A stretch of 64,000 nt of DNA, from NCBI GenBank assembly GCA_018971835.1, contig JAGWZW010000005.1:1-64000 (forward strand), given 5' to 3'. The number at the start of each line of letters is the position of its first letter. The first letter of the stretch is position 1. The DNA is from Alphaproteobacteria bacterium (GTDB taxonomy: Bacteria > Pseudomonadota > Alphaproteobacteria > Micropepsales > Micropepsaceae). The notes under the pieces are model-generated. The model saw only the letters and a list, made by a program, of their open reading frames with translations. It was not told the DNA's origin and did not search any database. Shown piece by piece: positions 8,333 to 56,603 of the stretch. Made by a program: the position numbers and the translations under genes.

Positions 8333-9928
8333 GTGACCGCTGGCGCTCCTTGGTGGCGCGGTGCGGTCATCTATCAGGTCTATGTCCGCTCCTTCGCGGA
8401 CGGCAACGGCGACGGGCAGGGGGATTTCTCCGGCCTGCGCTGCAAGCTGGGATATCTGGCCGGGCTTGGCGTGGACGCGATCTGGCTCTCGCCCATCCAT
8501 CCCTCGCCCAACCGGGACTGGGGCTACGACGTCTCGGATTTCGACGGCGTCCATCCCGATTACGGCACGCAGGAGGAGTTCGACCTTCTGCTGTCGGAGG
8601 CGCATGCCCTTGGCCTGAAGGTGATGACCGACGAGGTGCTGGCCCACACCTCGGACGAGCATCCCTGGTTTCTGGAAAGCCTCACGGGGCGGGACAAGGC
8701 CAACTGGTATGTCTGGGCCGATCCGAAGCCCGACGGCACTGCGCCCAACAACTGGCTCTCGGCCTTCGCCGGGCCGGCCTGGTCCTACCAGCCCGCACGC
8801 CAGAAATATTACCACCACAAATTCCTGCGCCAGCAGCCCAAACTGAACTGGCGCGAGCCCGCGGCGCGTGCGGCCGTGCTGGCGGTGCTGGAACGCTGGC
8901 TCTTGCGCGGGGTGGACGGTTTTCGCCTCGACGTGGCCAACGCCTATCTTCACGACCCCGCGTTGACCGGCAATCCGCCGGTGCCTCTGGAGGCGCGCAC
9001 GCTGTCGAGCTGGGCGCATCCGCCAAACATGCAATTCCACTATTATGACAGCAACTTGCCGGAGAATATCGAAGTCCTGGATGAAGTGCGCCGCACGGTC
9101 GAGCGCCATCCCGACCGCTTTGTAATGGGAGAATTTTCGGAGGAGGCCGAGCGCTGCGGCTGCTACGCCGCACCGGACGAAGGCCTGCACTCCGGCTACA
9201 GCTTCCCGCTGCTCGAAGCGCGCGCGCTCGGTGCCCTGTTCATTCGCGAGCATTACGCGATGCTGGCGCGCCACCCGCGCCACTGGCCATCCATCGCCTT
9301 TTCCAACCACGATGTGATGCGCACGGTCAGCCGCTTCGGCGGCGAGATGCCACCCGCTGGGCTGGACAAGCTGCTGCTGGCGCTGCTGCTCTCGCTGCGC
9401 GGCACGGCGCTGCTCTATCAGGGCGAAGAACTGGGCCTGACGCAGGCGCAGATTCCCCGTGCGCAACAGAAGGATCCGGTGGGCGATCTCTACTATCCGT
9501 ACGTCTATGGCCGCGACGGCTGCCGCACGCCCATGCCGTGGGATGGCGAAGCCGACAATCTCGGCTTCGGCACAGGTACGCCGTGGCTGCCGGCGCAGCA
9601 GGCCCACCGCAAGCTGGCCGTTTCGGCCCAGTTGGCTGATCCGGGCTCGGCGCTCAATTTCGCCCGCCGGTTTCTTACCACACGCAAGGCCAGTGCAGCG
9701 TTGCGCCTGGGCGACATCGCATTCCTCGACCTGCCGGAGCCGCTGCTGGCCTTCACGCGAACGGACGAGAACGAACGCGTGCTCTGCGTCTTCAACATGA
9801 GCGGCGACGAACAAACGTTCGCGATCGCCGATGCCGCGACGCTCGGTGTCGGCTGCGGCGCAACTTCGCTTTCGGGCCGGACGCTGCAGCTCGGCCCCTA
9901 TGCGGCGTGGTTCGGCACGCTGCTCTGA
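8333..9928 (+). CDS. GH13 alpha-glucosidase
   Basis: A 531-residue glycoside hydrolase of family 13, alpha-glucosidase/oligo-1,6-glucosidase subgroup, which releases glucose from alpha-linked oligosaccharides. The barrel motifs are present: YQVYVRSFADGNGDG at the start, GFRLDVANAY with the nucleophile Asp (about 200), VMGEFSEEAE with the acid/base Glu (about 265), and FSNHDVMRT with the third acid (about 325). RGTALLYQGEELGL follows. There is no signal peptide, so it acts on imported sugars. The GTG start has GAGG eight bases upstream, inside the end of the ClpP-like gene. The gene converges on a small secreted-protein gene only seven bases away. Confidence 0.88.
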   Translation: MTAGAPWWRGAVIYQVYVRSFADGNGDGQGDFSGLRCKLGYLAGLGVDAIWLSPIHPSPNRDWGYDVSDFDGVHPDYGTQEEFDLLLSEAHALGLKVMTDEVLAHTSDEHPWFLESLTGRDKANWYVWADPKPDGTAPNNWLSAFAGPAWSYQPARQKYYHHKFLRQQPKLNWREPAARAAVLAVLERWLLRGVDGFRLDVANAYLHDPALTGNPPVPLEARTLSSWAHPPNMQFHYYDSNLPENIEVLDEVRRTVERHPDRFVMGEFSEEAERCGCYAAPDEGLHSGYSFPLLEARALGALFIREHYAMLARHPRHWPSIAFSNHDVMRTVSRFGGEMPPAGLDKLLLALLLSLRGTALLYQGEELGLTQAQIPRAQQKDPVGDLYYPYVYGRDGCRTPMPWDGEADNLGFGTGTPWLPAQQAHRKLAVSAQLADPGSALNFARRFLTTRKASAALRLGDIAFLDLPEPLLAFTRTDENERVLCVFNMSGDEQTFAIADAATLGVGCGATSLSGRTLQLGPYAAWFGTLL

Positions 9929-9935
9929 CCTGCGG

Positions 9936-10280
9936 CTATTTCGCCTTGCCGCTGGCCGGGCAGGCCGCCACCTTCTTCCAGGTGACATGGTCCAGGGGGA
10001 TGCCCTGCATGCAGATGCCCATGTCCGCGCTGATCTTGCCGTGGCCCTGGATCATGTCGCCCATCGCCGGCTGCGGCTTGGCGGTCGTGATGTTGTAGAT
10101 CGTGCGCTGGCCGTTGGTGACCGAACGCACGCCCATGCAGCCTTTCTCCATCAGCGGTCCGGCCTCGCCGCAAAAATCGATACGCTGGCCGATCTTCGGC
10201 GCCGTGTTGTCTGCGCCGGCCGCTGGAACAGCCAGCATCGCCAAAAGGGATGCGGCCGTGCAACAGGTCGAGATTTTCAT
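9936..10280 (-). CDS. Small secreted cysteine-containing protein, unknown
   Basis: A 114-residue protein whose start at 10280 is set by a strong GGGAGG ten bases upstream. It has a signal peptide (MKISTCC, then a hydrophobic run to VPAAGA near residue 22). The mature part has about five cysteines (FCGEAG, KGCMG, GICMQG, AACPAS) that could pair in the periplasm. I do not recognise a family. The cysteine-rich layout and a match to neither strand's enzymes suggest a small envelope protein. It lies 32 bases after the IscU-like gene on the same strand and may be the last gene of that operon. Confidence 0.62.
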   Translation of the reverse strand: MKISTCCTAASLLAMLAVPAAGADNTAPKIGQRIDFCGEAGPLMEKGCMGVRSVTNGQRTIYNITTAKPQPAMGDMIQGHGKISADMGICMQGIPLDHVTWKKVAACPASGKAK

Positions 10281-49967: not shown

Positions 49968-51224
49968 TCATTTCATCCCCCGCCCCTTGCCGAGCACATC
50001 GCGGCCGAATTTGGCGCGCACCTTGTCCATGGCCCGCTCGGCGGCCGCGCGCTTGCCTGCGCCTTCGTCCACCAGGTCGGCGGGATCGCAATCGGCAGCG
50101 CTGACCAAGTTCGAAATCCCCACGCCCAGCAAACGAAACGCCGTGCCGTCGGCCTCGCGCAGCAGCGCCTCGCGTGCCACGCGGTAGATGCGGTCGGCAA
50201 GCTGCGTGGGCGCCTCAAGCGAATGGCTGCGGGTGCGGGTTTTGAAGCCGGCCGTCTTGAGCTTCAGCGTCACGGTGCGCCCGCCGAGGTCGCTCGCTTT
50301 GGCGCGGGCGGAGACGCGCTCGGCCTGATCCCACAGCACATGCTCCAGCGTTTCGAAATCGGTGATATCGGTTTCGAAGGTGACTTCGCCGGAGATGCTC
50401 TTCATCTCGGCGTCGGGATCGACGGCGCGCGCATCCTCCGCGTTGGCCATGCGCCAGAGCCACAGCCCGGTATTGCCGTAGTGCTTCATCAGGTCGTGCG
50501 GATCGGCGTCCTGCACATGTGCGATGGTGGTGACGCCGTCCCGCGCCAGCCGCGCCTCGGTCGCCGCGCCCACGCCGCGGACGAAGCCGATGGGTTTTGC
50601 CCGCAGGAAGGTTTTGGCCTCGGCACGGCCGATCACGGCGAAGCCGCGCGGTTTGTCGAGGTCGGACGCCAGCTTGGCCAGGAACTTGTTGTAGCTGAGG
50701 CCGATCGAGGCGGTGATGCCGATATCGTCGTGAATCCGCTTCGCCAACCGTGCCATGCTCTTGGCCGGGGTCATGCCGTGCAACCGCTCGGTGCCGGAAA
50801 GATCGAGATAGGCCTCGTCGAGCGAGAGCGGCTCGACCAGCGGCGTCAGTTCGCGCATCAGCGCGCGCACGGCGCGTGCCACTTCGGCATATTTGCTCAT
50901 GCTGGGCCGGATCACCACCGCCTTGGGGCAGAGCTTGAGGGCCTGGAACATCGGCATTGCCGAGCGCACGCCGTGGATACGGGCGAGATAGCAGGCGGTT
51001 GAGACCACGCCGCGCCGCCCGCTGCCGCCCACGATTACCGGCTTGTCGATCAGCGAGGGATCGTCGCGCTTTTCGATGGATGCGTAGAAAGCGTCGCAGT
51101 CGAGATGCGCGATGGCGAGCGCATCCAGTTCGGCATGCGAGAGGATCCGTCGGCCGCCGCAGGCCTTGCAGCGTGTCCCGCTCTGGGGGGCATCGGCAAG
51201 GCAGTCGCGGCAGAAGGCGCTCAT
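49968..51224 (-). CDS. dinB: DNA polymerase IV (DinB) with N-terminal zinc-finger-like extension
   Basis: A 418-residue Y-family translesion polymerase. Residues 5-22 carry four cysteines, CRDC and CKAC, that resemble a zinc ribbon. The polymerase core follows, with the metal motif AHLDCDAFYASIEKRDDP (about 39-56), PLSLDEAYLDLSG, the helix-hairpin-helix IGFVRGVGAATEARLARDGV, and a little-finger domain. The C terminus has no clear beta-clamp peptide that I can place with certainty. It overlaps the HAD gene by four bases. Confidence 0.9.
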   Translation of the reverse strand: MSAFCRDCLADAPQSGTRCKACGGRRILSHAELDALAIAHLDCDAFYASIEKRDDPSLIDKPVIVGGSGRRGVVSTACYLARIHGVRSAMPMFQALKLCPKAVVIRPSMSKYAEVARAVRALMRELTPLVEPLSLDEAYLDLSGTERLHGMTPAKSMARLAKRIHDDIGITASIGLSYNKFLAKLASDLDKPRGFAVIGRAEAKTFLRAKPIGFVRGVGAATEARLARDGVTTIAHVQDADPHDLMKHYGNTGLWLWRMANAEDARAVDPDAEMKSISGEVTFETDITDFETLEHVLWDQAERVSARAKASDLGGRTVTLKLKTAGFKTRTRSHSLEAPTQLADRIYRVAREALLREADGTAFRLLGVGISNLVSAADCDPADLVDEGAGKRAAAERAMDKVRAKFGRDVLGKGRGMK

Positions 51225-51871
51225 TGCGGCAGGCGGGCGCGGATGAAGGCTTCGGCTGCGCGCCAGTCTTCTGCGCGCAGATGTGCGGCGGGCGCCGGCG
51301 GCATCAGCGGCTTCAGCCGCTCGTCGCCGACGAGATGGATGCGGAAAACCTGGGGCGCGGTTTCGGCGGCATGGGCCAGATGCTGCGGAATGTCGTCCAT
51401 GAAGAAAGCGGGAGTCCCCGCGCGCTGCGCCAGCGCCTTCACCGCCTCGCCCTTGGGCCCGGAATTGACCAGCAGCGGAAAATCGAAGCCGAGCCTGGCA
51501 AGGTTGCGGACGCGCGCGGGCGCCTGCGCCGGTGTGACGTTGGAGAGTACGACGGTCTGCATCCGTCCGCGCAGACCCGCCAGCACCTCGGCGGCGTGCT
51601 CCACCGCGTCCAGCGAATCGAGGTCGCTGCGGAATTCTTCGAGCAGGACGGTGACTTCGACGTCGATCAGCTTCGTGCCGTCGTCATGGCGCGTCACGTT
51701 GCCGTGCAGCCGGTAGCTGGAAAGATCGAGCGTGAGCCCGCGCGCGTCGAGAAACCGGATGAAGCCGTCCACGAAGCGCAGCAGCACTTCGTCGGCATCG
51801 GTGATGAGCAGCGGCCGATCCGCGTCGAGCGGAACCGTAGCGGGCGAAGTATGGAAGTTGTTCTTCGTCAT
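51221..51871 (-). CDS. HAD-superfamily hydrolase, cotranscribed with dinB
   Basis: A 216-residue haloacid-dehalogenase-fold protein. Motif I is ITDADEVLLRF (about 23-33, DxDxV intact), motif II is VVLSNVTPAQAPAR, motif III is the lysine region near SGPKGEAVKAL, and motif IV FMDDIPQHL. All are consistent with a working phosphatase, substrate unknown. Four-base overlaps tie it to DUF3572 upstream and dinB downstream. Confidence 0.8.
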   Translation of the reverse strand: MTKNNFHTSPATVPLDADRPLLITDADEVLLRFVDGFIRFLDARGLTLDLSSYRLHGNVTRHDDGTKLIDVEVTVLLEEFRSDLDSLDAVEHAAEVLAGLRGRMQTVVLSNVTPAQAPARVRNLARLGFDFPLLVNSGPKGEAVKALAQRAGTPAFFMDDIPQHLAHAAETAPQVFRIHLVGDERLKPLMPPAPAAHLRAEDWRAAEAFIRARLPQ

Positions 51872-52149
51872 GCTGGCGCAGCACCGGGCAGCGCGCGGCG
51901 CAGGCGGTGCAGGGCCGCCGAATCGAGTTCCTGCTGCGCGCAGAAATCGGTGACCAGCGCATCGTCGCCGAGCAGAAAGTCCATCACCGCGGCAAGGAAT
52001 TCCGGATCGCCTGCGCGCGCACGGATGACGTCGATATCCGCGCCGGACGCCGCCATGAAGCGGCCGAGCGCATCCGCGGCGGCGAGAAAGCCCAGGGCTT
52101 CAAGCGCCACGGTCTCGGCGCGGGAGGTTTCCAGACCTGAGGACTTCAC
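51868..52149 (-). CDS. DUF3572 family protein
   Basis: A 93-residue protein beginning VKSSGLETSRAETVALEALG with GTG. Segments ALGFLAAADALGRFMAASG and AAVMDFLLGDDALVTDFC fit DUF3572, a short alphaproteobacterial family of all-helical proteins. No function is known. It is the first gene of a three-gene unit with a HAD protein and DinB. Confidence 0.78.
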   Translation of the reverse strand: MKSSGLETSRAETVALEALGFLAAADALGRFMAASGADIDVIRARAGDPEFLAAVMDFLLGDDALVTDFCAQQELDSAALHRLRRALPGAAPA

Positions 52150-52208
52150 GCGGGCGCAAACCTTTGCCGGCGGACCATTCCGCCCGCTCCGGTTATACGC
52201 CCGCTCTG

Positions 52209-52448
52209 CTAGAAATCCACGTTGTCCTGGGGCGCGCGCTGGCTGAGCGCCAGCAGGCGCCTTGCCTCGGCGGCGGCCAGATGCAGCAGCCGCGCCAGCA
52301 CGTCGTGGTGCTGCGCTTCGGCGATTCGCGCGAGGTCGCGCAGCATGCGTGCGCTATAGTCATCGATATCCTGCGCGGAAAGAGCCGCAGGGGGAGATCC
52401 ACATTCCGTCCCACCGTCCTTGGTGAGATTCTGGTGAGGATCCGGCAT
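52209..52448 (-). CDS. Small hypothetical helical protein
   Basis: A 79-residue protein starting at 52448 (MPDPHQNLTKDGG), with GGGAGG eight bases upstream. The C-terminal half is predicted helical and rich in Ala, Arg and Leu (DIDDYSARMLRDLARIAEAQ). I do not recognise a family. It lies 26 bases downstream of the FlbD-like gene on the same strand and may be cotranscribed with it. Confidence 0.6.
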   Translation of the reverse strand: MPDPHQNLTKDGGTECGSPPAALSAQDIDDYSARMLRDLARIAEAQHHDVLARLLHLAAAEARRLLALSQRAPQDNVDF

Positions 52449-52474
52449 TGGGCTTTCCTCCCGCAGTTTTGATT

Positions 52475-53041
52475 TCAAAAGCCGCCGGCGGTCTGAGGTT
52501 CGCCTTGACGCCGGGCCCCAGCATGGCCGTCCTGAGCCTCATGGGCTGCCGGCACTTCACCGGGAAGCGGCACGACGATTCCGGCCTGGGTGTATTCCCG
52601 AAGCTTGTTGCGCAGCGTGCGCACGGAAATGTCGAGGATTTCAGCTGCGCGTGTGCGGTTGCCGAGGCAACAGGCGAGGGTGATGAGGATCAGTTCGCGC
52701 TCAACTTCCGCGACACTGTGGCCCAGGAGCGCACGCATGGCCGCCTCAGACGGGCGTTTGCCGGTGTGAAGTTCCTCGGCCTGTTCGGGCAGGCGGATCA
52801 CCTCGGCGCCGATCTCGTCGCCTTCTGCCATGATGGCCGCGCGGCGTATGGTGGCTTCCATTGCCGATAGATCGCTGTGCCAGTCATACGCGGCGAGCAG
52901 GGCCTCAGCTTCCGCGCTGAGCGGGCGAAACGGCAAGCCACGGTCCTGGGCGCATTTGCACGCGAACAATTCGGCCAGCGAACGGATATGTCGGGAGCCG
53001 TGATTTTGAGAATGATACTCAGTGAGTACGTCCGGTTGCAT
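52475..53041 (-). CDS. FlbD-like C-terminal DNA-binding protein, lacking receiver and ATPase core
   Basis: A 188-residue protein. Residues about 25-105 resemble the end of the AAA+ domain of an NtrC/FlbD-type activator: SLAELFACKCAQDRGLPFRP, then AYDWHSDLSAMEATIRRA, where the usual WPGNVRELEN is changed to WHSDLSAMEA. A Fis-type helix-turn-helix follows (about 125-165), with LACCLGNRTRAAEILDISVR and TLRNKLREY. The receiver and GAFTGA-bearing ATPase core are absent, so it cannot work as a sigma-54 activator itself. The start at 53041 has GAGG six bases upstream. It could be a degraded flbD or a free-standing DNA-binding factor. Confidence 0.75.
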   Translation of the reverse strand: MQPDVLTEYHSQNHGSRHIRSLAELFACKCAQDRGLPFRPLSAEAEALLAAYDWHSDLSAMEATIRRAAIMAEGDEIGAEVIRLPEQAEELHTGKRPSEAAMRALLGHSVAEVERELILITLACCLGNRTRAAEILDISVRTLRNKLREYTQAGIVVPLPGEVPAAHEAQDGHAGARRQGEPQTAGGF

Positions 53042-53358
53042 CCCCAACCTCATGTCTTGGTCAGCGCCTGATTGCGCATGGGTCGTTGTACAACCATTAA
53101 TAAACAAGCCTCTTTGGAAATACAACCGTAGATAGAATTCTGGTTAAGTAATTTTCACCGTGCGAACGGCCCAAAACCGCCGACTGGCGGGCGCCCCAAG
53201 GCAACATCGTCAAGGGAGCGTTAAGGGTTCCAATCACATACTGCCTATGCCCCAAGGCAGCTGTCGGCTGCCGGTCGTCCAGTCTCCGGCCGGGGCCAAG
53301 GGGGATGTCCGCGCGGGAACCGGCGCGGTTGGCGAGTATCGGCCGAGGAGAGCAAGGA
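53042..53358. promoter_or_regulatory. Divergent intergenic region with a perfect palindrome
   Basis: This 317-base region between the FlbD-like gene and divK has a relatively A/T-rich core (53085-53155). It contains the perfect ten-base palindrome GTTGTACAAC at 53085-53094 and a further TACAAC half-site at 53121-53126. Both promoters must lie here. I see no gene in it and no clear CtrA site of the TTAA-N7-TTAA form. Confidence 0.45.
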
Positions 53359-53733
53359 ATGGACGCAGCAGTAAAAACAGTTCTGATCGTGGAGGATAAT
53401 GAGCTCAACATGAAGCTCTTCCACGATCTGCTGGACGCACACGGCTACAAGATCCTCCAGACCAAGGACGGCATGGAAGCCCTCGACATCGCACGCGAGC
53501 ATCACCCCGACCTGATTCTGATGGACATCCAGCTCCCTGAGGTTTCGGGCCTCGAAGTCACCAAATGGCTGAAGGAAGACGATACGCTCAAATCGATTCC
53601 GGTGGTGGCAGTAACGGCTTTTGCCATGAAGGGGGACGAAGAAGTGATCCGACAGGGCGGCTGCGAGGCTTATATCTCCAAGCCGATTTCGGTGACGACC
53701 TTCCTGGATACTGTGCGCCGTTTCATAGGATAG
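53359..53733 (+). CDS. divK: Single-domain response regulator DivK
   Basis: A 124-residue receiver-only protein. The acidic pair VEDNELN, the phospho-acceptor Asp56 in [15 protein letters not shown], the threonine in [13 protein letters not shown] and the lysine in YISKPISV are intact. Length and sequence match DivK of Caulobacter, which relays cell-fate signals through DivJ, PleC and DivL to CtrA. It is followed four bases later by pleD, the normal alphaproteobacterial gene pair. GGAG/AGGA-like bases lie before the ATG at 53359. Confidence 0.95.
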
Positions 53734-53737
53734 GCTC

Positions 53738-55108
53738 ATGACCGCCCGTGTCCTGGTCGTCGATGACATCCTCTCCAACGTCAAGCTGCTCGAGGCGAAG
53801 CTCACTGCCGAATATTTCGAGGTCGTGACGGCCTATAGCGGGCAAGAAGCGCTGGAGCGCATCGAGGAGCACGAACCGGATATCGTCCTGCTTGATGTCA
53901 TGATGCCGGGCATGGACGGCTTCGAGGTCTGCCGCCGCATCAAGCACAATCCCAAAACCGCCCATGTCCCCGTGGTGATGGTGACGGCGCTCGACCAGCC
54001 GTCCGACCGCGTGGCCGGCCTGGAAGCGGGCGCCGACGATTTCCTCACCAAGCCGGTGGACGATGCGGCGCTGTTTGCGCGCGTGCGCTCCCTGGTGCGC
54101 CTCAAGTTGATGATGGACGAGCTGCGCATGCGCGAGGCTACGGGCCAGAACATGGGCCTGGTCGATCCCGCCGATAGCCTGATCGAAGACAATCTTTCCG
54201 GGCGCATCCTGATCATCGAGGACCGTCCCGAGTCGGTGGCTTGGTTCAAGGCCGCGCTCAGCCCGCCGCATGAGATTTCCGCCGTCGATGCCTTCGAGGA
54301 AGCGGTGGTGCGCGTGCGCGGCGGCGATTACGATCTGATCGTGGTGAGCCTGGGCCTGCGCGGTTTCGACGGCCTTAGGCTGTGTTCGCAGCTGCGCTCG
54401 CTGCCGGAGGGGCGCAACGTGCCGATCCTGGTGGTGGTCAGCGATGGCGAGCGGCGCAAGCTCAATCAGGCGCTTGAAATGGGCGTCAACGATTATCTTT
54501 CGCGCCCGGTCGACCGCAACGAGCTGGTGGCACGGGTGCGCACACAACTGCGCAAGAAGCGCTATGCCGACCGGCTGCGCCACAACGTCCAGCTTAGCCT
54601 GGAGATGGCGATCACAGACCAGCTCACCGGCTTGCACAACCGCCGCTACATGAGCCGCCATCTGGATACGCTGATCGTCAGCGCGCGCAAGTCCGGCAAG
54701 CCAATCGCCTTCCTGATCATGGACATCGATTTCTTCAAATCGGTCAACGACAGCTACGGCCATGATATCGGCGACGAGGTGCTGCGCGAGTTTGCCAGTC
54801 GCATCAGCGCCAATGTGCGCGGCATCGATCTGGCCTGCCGCTACGGCGGCGAAGAATTCGTCGTGGTCATGCCCGATACCGATATGGCCTTCGCCTGTGC
54901 GGTCGCCGAGCGCCTGCGCAAGAGCGTGGAAGTCAATCCATTTCCCGTCAGCCGCGATCCGGGCAGGCTCAATGTCACGGTGTCGATCGGCATTGCCGGT
55001 TCCGAAGGCAACAACGACAGCGCCGAGGCACTGCTGCACCGGGCCGACCAGGCGCTCTACCGCGCCAAGCGCGAAGGCAGAAATCGCGTGATCGCCGACG
55101 CGGCCTAA
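53738..55108 (+). CDS. pleD: Diguanylate cyclase response regulator PleD
   Basis: A 456-residue protein with domain order receiver, receiver-like adaptor, GGDEF. The first receiver has Asp53 in VLLDVMMPGMD. The second (about 155-270) lacks the acceptor aspartate, with serine 204 in its place, as expected for the PleD adaptor. The GGDEF domain (about 290-455) has GGEEF at 370-374 and the inhibitory site RGID at 361-364, so c-di-GMP feedback should work. It makes c-di-GMP to drive polar development. Confidence 0.95.
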   Translation: MTARVLVVDDILSNVKLLEAKLTAEYFEVVTAYSGQEALERIEEHEPDIVLLDVMMPGMDGFEVCRRIKHNPKTAHVPVVMVTALDQPSDRVAGLEAGADDFLTKPVDDAALFARVRSLVRLKLMMDELRMREATGQNMGLVDPADSLIEDNLSGRILIIEDRPESVAWFKAALSPPHEISAVDAFEEAVVRVRGGDYDLIVVSLGLRGFDGLRLCSQLRSLPEGRNVPILVVVSDGERRKLNQALEMGVNDYLSRPVDRNELVARVRTQLRKKRYADRLRHNVQLSLEMAITDQLTGLHNRRYMSRHLDTLIVSARKSGKPIAFLIMDIDFFKSVNDSYGHDIGDEVLREFASRISANVRGIDLACRYGGEEFVVVMPDTDMAFACAVAERLRKSVEVNPFPVSRDPGRLNVTVSIGIAGSEGNNDSAEALLHRADQALYRAKREGRNRVIADAA

Positions 55109-55740
55109 GCCGCCGCCTCGCTCAGCACCTTGTCGATGATCTGCAGGAAGGCCTCGGGTTCCTGCGCGCCCGACGCCGCATATTTGTTGGCGATGATAAA
55201 GGTCGGAACGCCGGTCACGCCCATCTGGTGCGCGAGCGTATCCTCACGCTCGACGAGCGCGCTGTCCGCATCCTGAGCCAGCAGATCGGCCACCAGTTCC
55301 GCATCCATGCCGGCCTCGGCGGCGATCTCGCGCAGCACGCTGCGGTCGGAGATGTCGCGGCCCTGTTCGAAGTAGCTGCTGAACAGGCGCTCCACCACCT
55401 CGTCCTGTACACCGGCCGTACCGGCCCAGCGGATCAGCCGGTGCGAATCGAGCGTGTTCGGCGCACGTTCAATGCTCTCGAACGCAAAGCGGATGCCGAG
55501 GCTTTCACCCAGTTGGCGGATGGTTTCGCCCGCCGCCTTGACGCGCTCGGTGTCGCCGAATTTGGCCTGAAGATAGGCTTTGCGCTCGTAGCCCTCGGGC
55601 GGGATTGTGGGATCCAGACGATAGGCACGCCAGCGTACGTCGAACGGCACATCGGGGCGCTGGGCCAGCGCTTTGGCCAGCCGCCGCTTGCCGATGAAAC
55701 ACCAGGGACAAACCGTGTCGGAAATCACGTCGATCTGCAT
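55105..55740 (-). CDS. FrnE/DsbA-like thioredoxin-fold oxidoreductase
   Basis: A 211-residue protein of the 2-hydroxychromene-2-carboxylate isomerase/DsbA (FrnE) family. The active site CPWC is at residues 11-14 in SDTVCPWCFIGKRRL, and GVTGVPTFIIANKYA has the cis-proline. No signal peptide is present, so it is cytoplasmic. The stop overlaps the end of pleD by four bases in convergent orientation. Its physiological substrate is unknown. Confidence 0.9.
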   Translation of the reverse strand: MQIDVISDTVCPWCFIGKRRLAKALAQRPDVPFDVRWRAYRLDPTIPPEGYERKAYLQAKFGDTERVKAAGETIRQLGESLGIRFAFESIERAPNTLDSHRLIRWAGTAGVQDEVVERLFSSYFEQGRDISDRSVLREIAAEAGMDAELVADLLAQDADSALVEREDTLAHQMGVTGVPTFIIANKYAASGAQEPEAFLQIIDKVLSEAAA

Positions 55741-55850
55741 GGCTAAAGGTTATCCCATCCGGGTCGCGGCGCAAAGGACCGCGCGGGCTTGACCGCGCAC
55801 GCGCCGCTTTCCACGATCGCTTCGTCGCTATTCGAACTCAGAGGTCAGAT

Positions 55851-56603
55851 ATGAATTACGATCTGAAGGGCCGGACGGCCTTCGTCACCGGCGCCACCAG
55901 CGGGCTGGGCCGGCGTTTTGCGCGCGTGCTGGCGCAGGCGGGGGCGGACATTGCCATCGCCGGCCGGCGCGCCGAACGGTTGGCCACCGTTAAATCCGAA
56001 ATCGAGGCGCTGGGCGGCAAATGTGCGGCCGTGCCGCTCGACGTCACAGATATTGGCGCCATCTCGCATGCCTTCGACACGGCGGAAGGCGCGCTCGGTC
56101 CCATCGGCATCCTCGTCAACAACGCCGGCATGAGCAGGGAGGGCCTGGCCGTGACCGTCACACCCGGGGATTTCGATGCCGTGATGGGCACCAATCTGCG
56201 CGCGCCGTTTTTTCTCGCTACCGAAGCTGCGCGCCGCATGATCGCACAGGGCAAAGGCGGTCGTATCGTCAATATCGCGTCGATCGCGGCCTTCCGCGTG
56301 CTGCCGGGAGTCTCGACCTACTGCATCTCGAAAGCAGGGCTCGCGATGATGACGCAGAGCTTGGCGCGTGAATGGGCACGCTACGAGATCAATGTCAATG
56401 CCATCTGTCCTGGTTTTATCGAGACAGAGATCAACCGAGACTGGTTCCAGACCGAAGCCGGGCAGAAACAGATCAGGTCTTTTCCCCGGCGCCGGCTGGC
56501 GCAGGAGAGCGATCTGGATGGTCTGTTGCTGCTGCTGGCGTCGGATGCCTCGCGGGCGATCACCGGCTCGCTGATGACTGTGGACGACGCCCAGTCGCTT
56601 TAA
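55851..56603 (+). CDS. Short-chain dehydrogenase/reductase (SDR)
   Basis: A 250-residue classical SDR. The NAD(P) motif is FVTGATSGLGRRFA (about 11-24), followed by NNAGMSREG, the catalytic serine in IVNIASIAAF, and YCISKAGLAMM with the YxxxK pair (about 156-160). The arginines after the first strand (AGRRAER) suggest NADPH preference. Such enzymes include 3-oxoacyl-ACP or 3-hydroxyacyl-CoA reductases; with a CoA-transferase two genes away, an acyl-CoA substrate is possible. GAGG precedes the ATG. Confidence 0.85.
   Translation: MNYDLKGRTAFVTGATSGLGRRFARVLAQAGADIAIAGRRAERLATVKSEIEALGGKCAAVPLDVTDIGAISHAFDTAEGALGPIGILVNNAGMSREGLAVTVTPGDFDAVMGTNLRAPFFLATEAARRMIAQGKGGRIVNIASIAAFRVLPGVSTYCISKAGLAMMTQSLAREWARYEINVNAICPGFIETEINRDWFQTEAGQKQIRSFPRRRLAQESDLDGLLLLLASDASRAITGSLMTVDDAQSL

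Follow-up and report, generated by a model that had tools for sequence, protein, structure and literature searches.

We report a short gene for a protein, P0001, that is related to FlbD, the flagellar sigma-54 activator, as an intact, selected and truncated paralogue. The gene was found in the window, a 64,000-nucleotide stretch of contig JAGWZW010000005.1 (assembly GCA_018971835.1), where it occupies positions 52475..53053 of the minus strand and encodes 192 amino acids from the ATG at 53053; a start at the ATG at 53041 (52475-53041), with AGG/GGGG immediately 5' of it, is also possible and would give 188 amino acids. Reasoning from the sequence, we propose, at roughly even chances, that P0001 acts at FlbD sites, as a competitor or as a dominant-negative modulator, and is Fis-like in its build.

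The initial annotation had claimed that P0001 keeps the Fis domain and AAA+ lid of FlbD, that the receiver and the ATPase core are gone and that GNVRELE in the lid has become SDLSAME, and all of this is borne out here. Pfam places an AAA+ lid domain (AAA_lid_14) at residues 23-94 (52772..52987, minus strand; 34.9 bits against a cut-off of 27) and a Fis-type helix-turn-helix (HTH_8), also seen in the structural model, at residues 114-154 (52592..52714, minus strand; 51 bits against a cut-off of 22), and returns no match in P0001 for either a receiver domain or the ATPase core (Sigma54_activat). The GAFTGA core that marks FlbD, and that is present in the FlbD of a relative, is thus missing from P0001. 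In an alignment with 30 FlbD sequences of the genus, SDLSAME replaces the sensor-II motif GNVRELE at residues 60-66 (52856..52876, minus strand), 48 of the 73 invariant columns are retained and the recognition helix, SVRTLRNKLREY, is one residue apart from that of FlbD, SIRTLRNKLREY. Among NCBIfam models the FlbD equivalog matches best, with just positions 296-451 of its 454 covered and a score (133 bits) far under the cut-off of 750, and the score for the Fis equivalog does not pass either (27.3 bits against a cut-off of 99). Pfam, NCBIfam and the alignment agree that P0001 carries a C-terminal Fis-type helix-turn-helix of the kind found in FlbD.

The AlphaFold2 monomer model of P0001 has a mean pLDDT of 77 and a pTM of 0.45, with pLDDT values of about 89-96 in the lid helices (residues 21-90) and about 87-96 in the helix-turn-helix (residues 121-150), joined by a loose linker. 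Its alignment drew on 29 of the 66 loci from a scan of the genome_contigs collection, in which no identity exceeded 37% across the matched part and none was taken as a close relative. The best PDB matches of the model in Foldseek are the sigma-54 activator ZraR (1ojl) and NtrX (5m7n-p); AAA+ domains of FlrC rank lower, with Fis further down.

P0001 is, as had been claimed, divergent from divK-pleD, a pair of cell-cycle genes: on the opposite (plus) strand lies an operon of divK (53359..53733) and pleD, encoding two receivers and a GGDEF domain (53738..55108). Directly downstream of P0001, and overlapping its end, is a small ORF of at most 89 amino acids (52209..52478, minus strand), which has no Pfam match and no match at E below 0.4 in the loci of 29 relatives, and beyond it a DUF3572 gene (51868..52149, minus strand). 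We compared the 29 pleD loci of these relatives, in 27 of which divK was readable. DUF3572 faces divK directly in 24 of the 27, which means that in the window P0001 and the small ORF separate a pair of genes adjacent to one another there; none of the 29 loci holds a relative of P0001 (best E 0.27). The CtrA half-sites upstream of divK are not conserved (2 of 27 relatives). None of the 29 loci has a full-length flbD, the presence of which here in relatives had been named beforehand as the sign of recent decay, and a tblastn search using residues 1-300 of FlbD from a relative found no remnant between positions 50001-56000 of the window (best E 0.94); on these grounds we reject the idea that P0001 is a full flbD that decayed in place.

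The label 'orphan' given to P0001 does not hold, because the same genome encodes a second short form, P0002, on contig C101. This protein of 178 amino acids is 49% identical to P0001 in alignment, has an HTH_8 domain and a weak lid match under the Pfam cut-off, and reads DHLSYLS at the sensor-II position when aligned with the FlbD of the genus; no remnant of an FlbD receiver or ATPase was found on the stretch of C101 around it (best E 4.5). Its recognition helix ends in LKKF instead of LREY, so that P0001 and P0002 may differ in their target. P0002 is immediately preceded by GGDEF and DUF2336 genes of its own strand (L055:10051-10896 and 8780-10054, both minus strand), whose frames overlap by a few bases; both short forms are near GGDEF genes, P0001 by pleD and P0002 by this GGDEF-DUF2336 pair. 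Just past P0002, in the opposite direction, is a single-domain PAS_5 gene (L055:7668-8159, plus strand); Caulobacter has a cell-cycle protein, MopJ, described as consisting of a single PAS domain (PMC4432633).

The two short forms group together in the tree, with values of 100/98 when outgroups are left out and 99/95 when they are included, and have 15 derived residues in common at which they differ from the residue present in at least 90% of FlbD. Branches in this tree are long and the position of the pair relative to the FlbD of the genus is not settled (AU p 0.43). Comparison of P0001 with P0002 gives pN 0.361, pS 0.703, dN 0.49 and dS 2.08, and hence a dN/dS of about 0.24 at near-saturated synonymous divergence. 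When P0001 is compared with the FlbD of four relatives, dN is 0.38-0.44 and dS 1.10-1.63, where the FlbD of the same four compared among themselves have dN 0.09-0.15 and dS 0.94-1.17; for PleD, dS is 0.80-0.90 with three relatives, the row for relative G002 (2.32), which was out of line, being left out. With dN well under dS, yet above the values for FlbD, P0001 and P0002 thus look constrained and faster-evolving than FlbD.

As to the sites at which FlbD acts, the sequence CGGCA-N5-TGCCG and a sigma-54 site are no more than 150 bp apart in six of eight relatives, and such a pair was seen in 0 of 400 shuffles (four of the eight stretches, shuffled 100 times apiece). We take this sequence as a putative local ftr-like site; no ftr consensus was found in a literature search for FlbD. 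In the source genome an ftr-like site lies upstream of flgF, 67 bp from a sigma-54-like site, and of two flagellin genes the first has a perfect sigma-54 site upstream, while the second is preceded by an ftr-like site together with a sigma-54-like site that departs from the pattern at one base. The sequence is not enriched genome-wide (28 sites vs 34 for the reversed control), and there is none in the intergenic region that P0001 and divK have in common (53054..53358). Before flgB, on contig C136, are two TTAA-N7-TTAA boxes (L179:8255-8323), which we take to be of the form of CtrA sites.

The proposed modulator keeps the lid of FlbD and its Fis domain, which binds DNA and would dimerise, with the receiver, ATPase core and sensor-II residues lost, and, because it has no ATPase, cannot open sigma-54 promoters. 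Given its FlbD recognition helix and Fis helices, we infer that P0001 dimerises and would be expected at FlbD-type sites, binding these ftr-like sites as a dimer or pairing with FlbD itself through the Fis helices, and that its binding or pairing would block or tune the flagellar genes under FlbD control. Competition for FlbD sites, the effect suggested in the initial annotation, is partly supported and would fit the anatomy of a protein whose helix is one residue off and whose ATPase is absent. A carboxy-terminal DNA-binding activity of FlbD was reportedly described by Mullin in 1994. FlbD of Caulobacter is described as both activating and repressing at ftr sites (PMC3930126), with its activity set by FliX (PMC3096577; PMC7064773), and NtrC-type DNA-binding domains are described as dimerising via their helices and are considered ancestors of Fis (PMC11407668, PMC7166090). 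Counting against a modulator at FlbD sites are the lack of a full-length FlbD in the assembly, the ftr-like pattern that is neither enriched nor present in the intergenic region, the occurrence in one of 69 genomes of the genus and the different helix of P0002.

Some of these points tell instead for a tentative alternative, in which P0001 now serves locally as a Fis-like regulator, or as an architectural protein, with targets of its own, such as divK-pleD or its own promoter, and is off the FlbD sites. The short forms have diverged much faster than FlbD (P0001 is 47-55% and P0002 40-45% identical to the FlbD of the genus, where other FlbD of the genus are 74-86% identical to that of G002), the ftr-like sites have no genome-wide excess, both copies are close to GGDEF genes and Fis itself is considered a descendant of an NtrC-type DNA-binding domain (PMC7166090, PMC11407668); the recognition helix of P0001, nearly the same as in FlbD, speaks against it, and we consider this account possible, if less than probable. 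PleD acts on motility in Caulobacter. A bolder form of the modulator reading, which we hold to be rather doubtful, is that stand-alone FlbD DNA-binding proteins make up a small family, every member by a diguanylate cyclase gene (pleD, and GGDEF-DUF2336 on C101), and might shut FlbD-driven flagellar promoters off as cells exit the motile state.

The search of the genome for a full FlbD that the initial annotation recommended gave the two short forms and no full-length FlbD in the assembly, and FlhA has no match either. The gene order in relative G002 is mnmA, flgL to fliG, flbD, flhA, and mnmA adjoins flgL in seven of eight relatives (the eighth stretch may end too early). When the 19-kb stretch of G002 was used in a DNA search, mnmA, flgL, fliF, fliG and flhA were unmatched in the source genome and the flgL-flhG stretch was not found; a protein search for MnmA was also empty, a result that carries little weight without a positive control. 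On the far side of flhA, the flank maps to contig C143, the last base of which (G000:C143:11484) falls inside fliI, matched at query residues 29-360 of 471 with 85.5% identity. Flagellar genes, named by reading the sequences, are open on contigs C45 and C136 (fliM, fliL, flgF, flgG, flgB, flgC, fliE, fliQ, fliR and flhB), as are the two flagellin genes named in the same way, and Flg_bb_rod was also found. Since the flgL-flbD-flhA block and mnmA are missing together, C143 ends in fliI and flagellar genes, flagellins and promoters are present, an assembly gap, within which flbD would lie, is probably the reason for the missing gene and the likeliest one. The missing match for FlhA raised the possibility that flagella had been lost, which is less likely in view of Flg_bb_rod, the flagellar genes, the flagellins and the break of C143 in fliI. 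That the block was truly deleted, the short forms being FlbD leftovers reused after flagellar control was lost, would account for the failure to find FlhA, mnmA and the flgL-flhG stretch, but we judge it unlikely, as the contig end cuts fliI on that side, mnmA is missing along with the block that it adjoins in relatives, many flagellar genes and both flagellins are open, and promoters with sigma-54 sites remain.

Conservation of the short form among orthologues, which was to be checked according to the initial annotation, does not extend across the genus. At high score the short form is present in one of 69 genomes with the source genome included, namely the source genome itself (E values of 1e-114 and 1e-102), and in 0 of the 68 others. 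The remaining genus matches, in 46 genomes, have E values of 1e-37 to 1e-45, with one fragment at 1e-21, and most have open frames of at least 290 amino acids; those in G033, G009 and G012 are near a contig end. A sample of the class, in which 146 of 386 genomes match at E <= 1e-25, likewise leaves the source genome alone standing apart. We read the short-frame matches in G351, G347 and G162 (leaving out G072, of the genus, with 295 amino acids, G205 with 321 and G435 with 366) and rejected all three as further short forms, each being an FlbD beside flhA with a frame break or contig end. In two of these class genomes a frame change apparently interrupts the flbD beside flhA (L182 in G351 and L183 in G347). 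There was no match in the viral_contigs collection, and none of 30 plasmid records had a place spanning 80% of the query; among the literature entries retrieved, none bore on a truncated FlbD or a paralogue of it. A functionless fragment on its way out might be as rare and fast-evolving as P0001, but with an intact frame, two copies and dN well under dS we find this highly improbable.

FlbD, the flagellar sigma-54 activator of Caulobacter and its relatives, is like P0001 in its lid, its Fis helix-turn-helix and a recognition helix one residue apart, whereas P0001 is without the receiver and the ATPase core, has lost the sensor-II motif and lies at another locus. Fis, a nucleoid-associated protein, is also small and stand-alone with an NtrC-type C-terminal helix-turn-helix, but P0001 keeps the AAA+ lid, is derived from FlbD and scores weakly against the Fis model. 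FleT of Rhodobacter sphaeroides is described as a partner activator of FleQ and is itself called a sigma-54 activator (PMC7277832); it is comparable to P0001, as proposed, in that a flagellar sigma-54 activator is modified by another protein related to it; unlike FleT, P0001 has only its lid and DNA-binding part remaining. Presence in one genome limits the weight of the finding. If the modulator reading is true, P0001 would be a natural dominant-negative of the flagellar master activator, lying beside the divK-pleD pair and made from an NtrC-type regulator by the same route that has been proposed for Fis, and competition at ftr sites would become testable.
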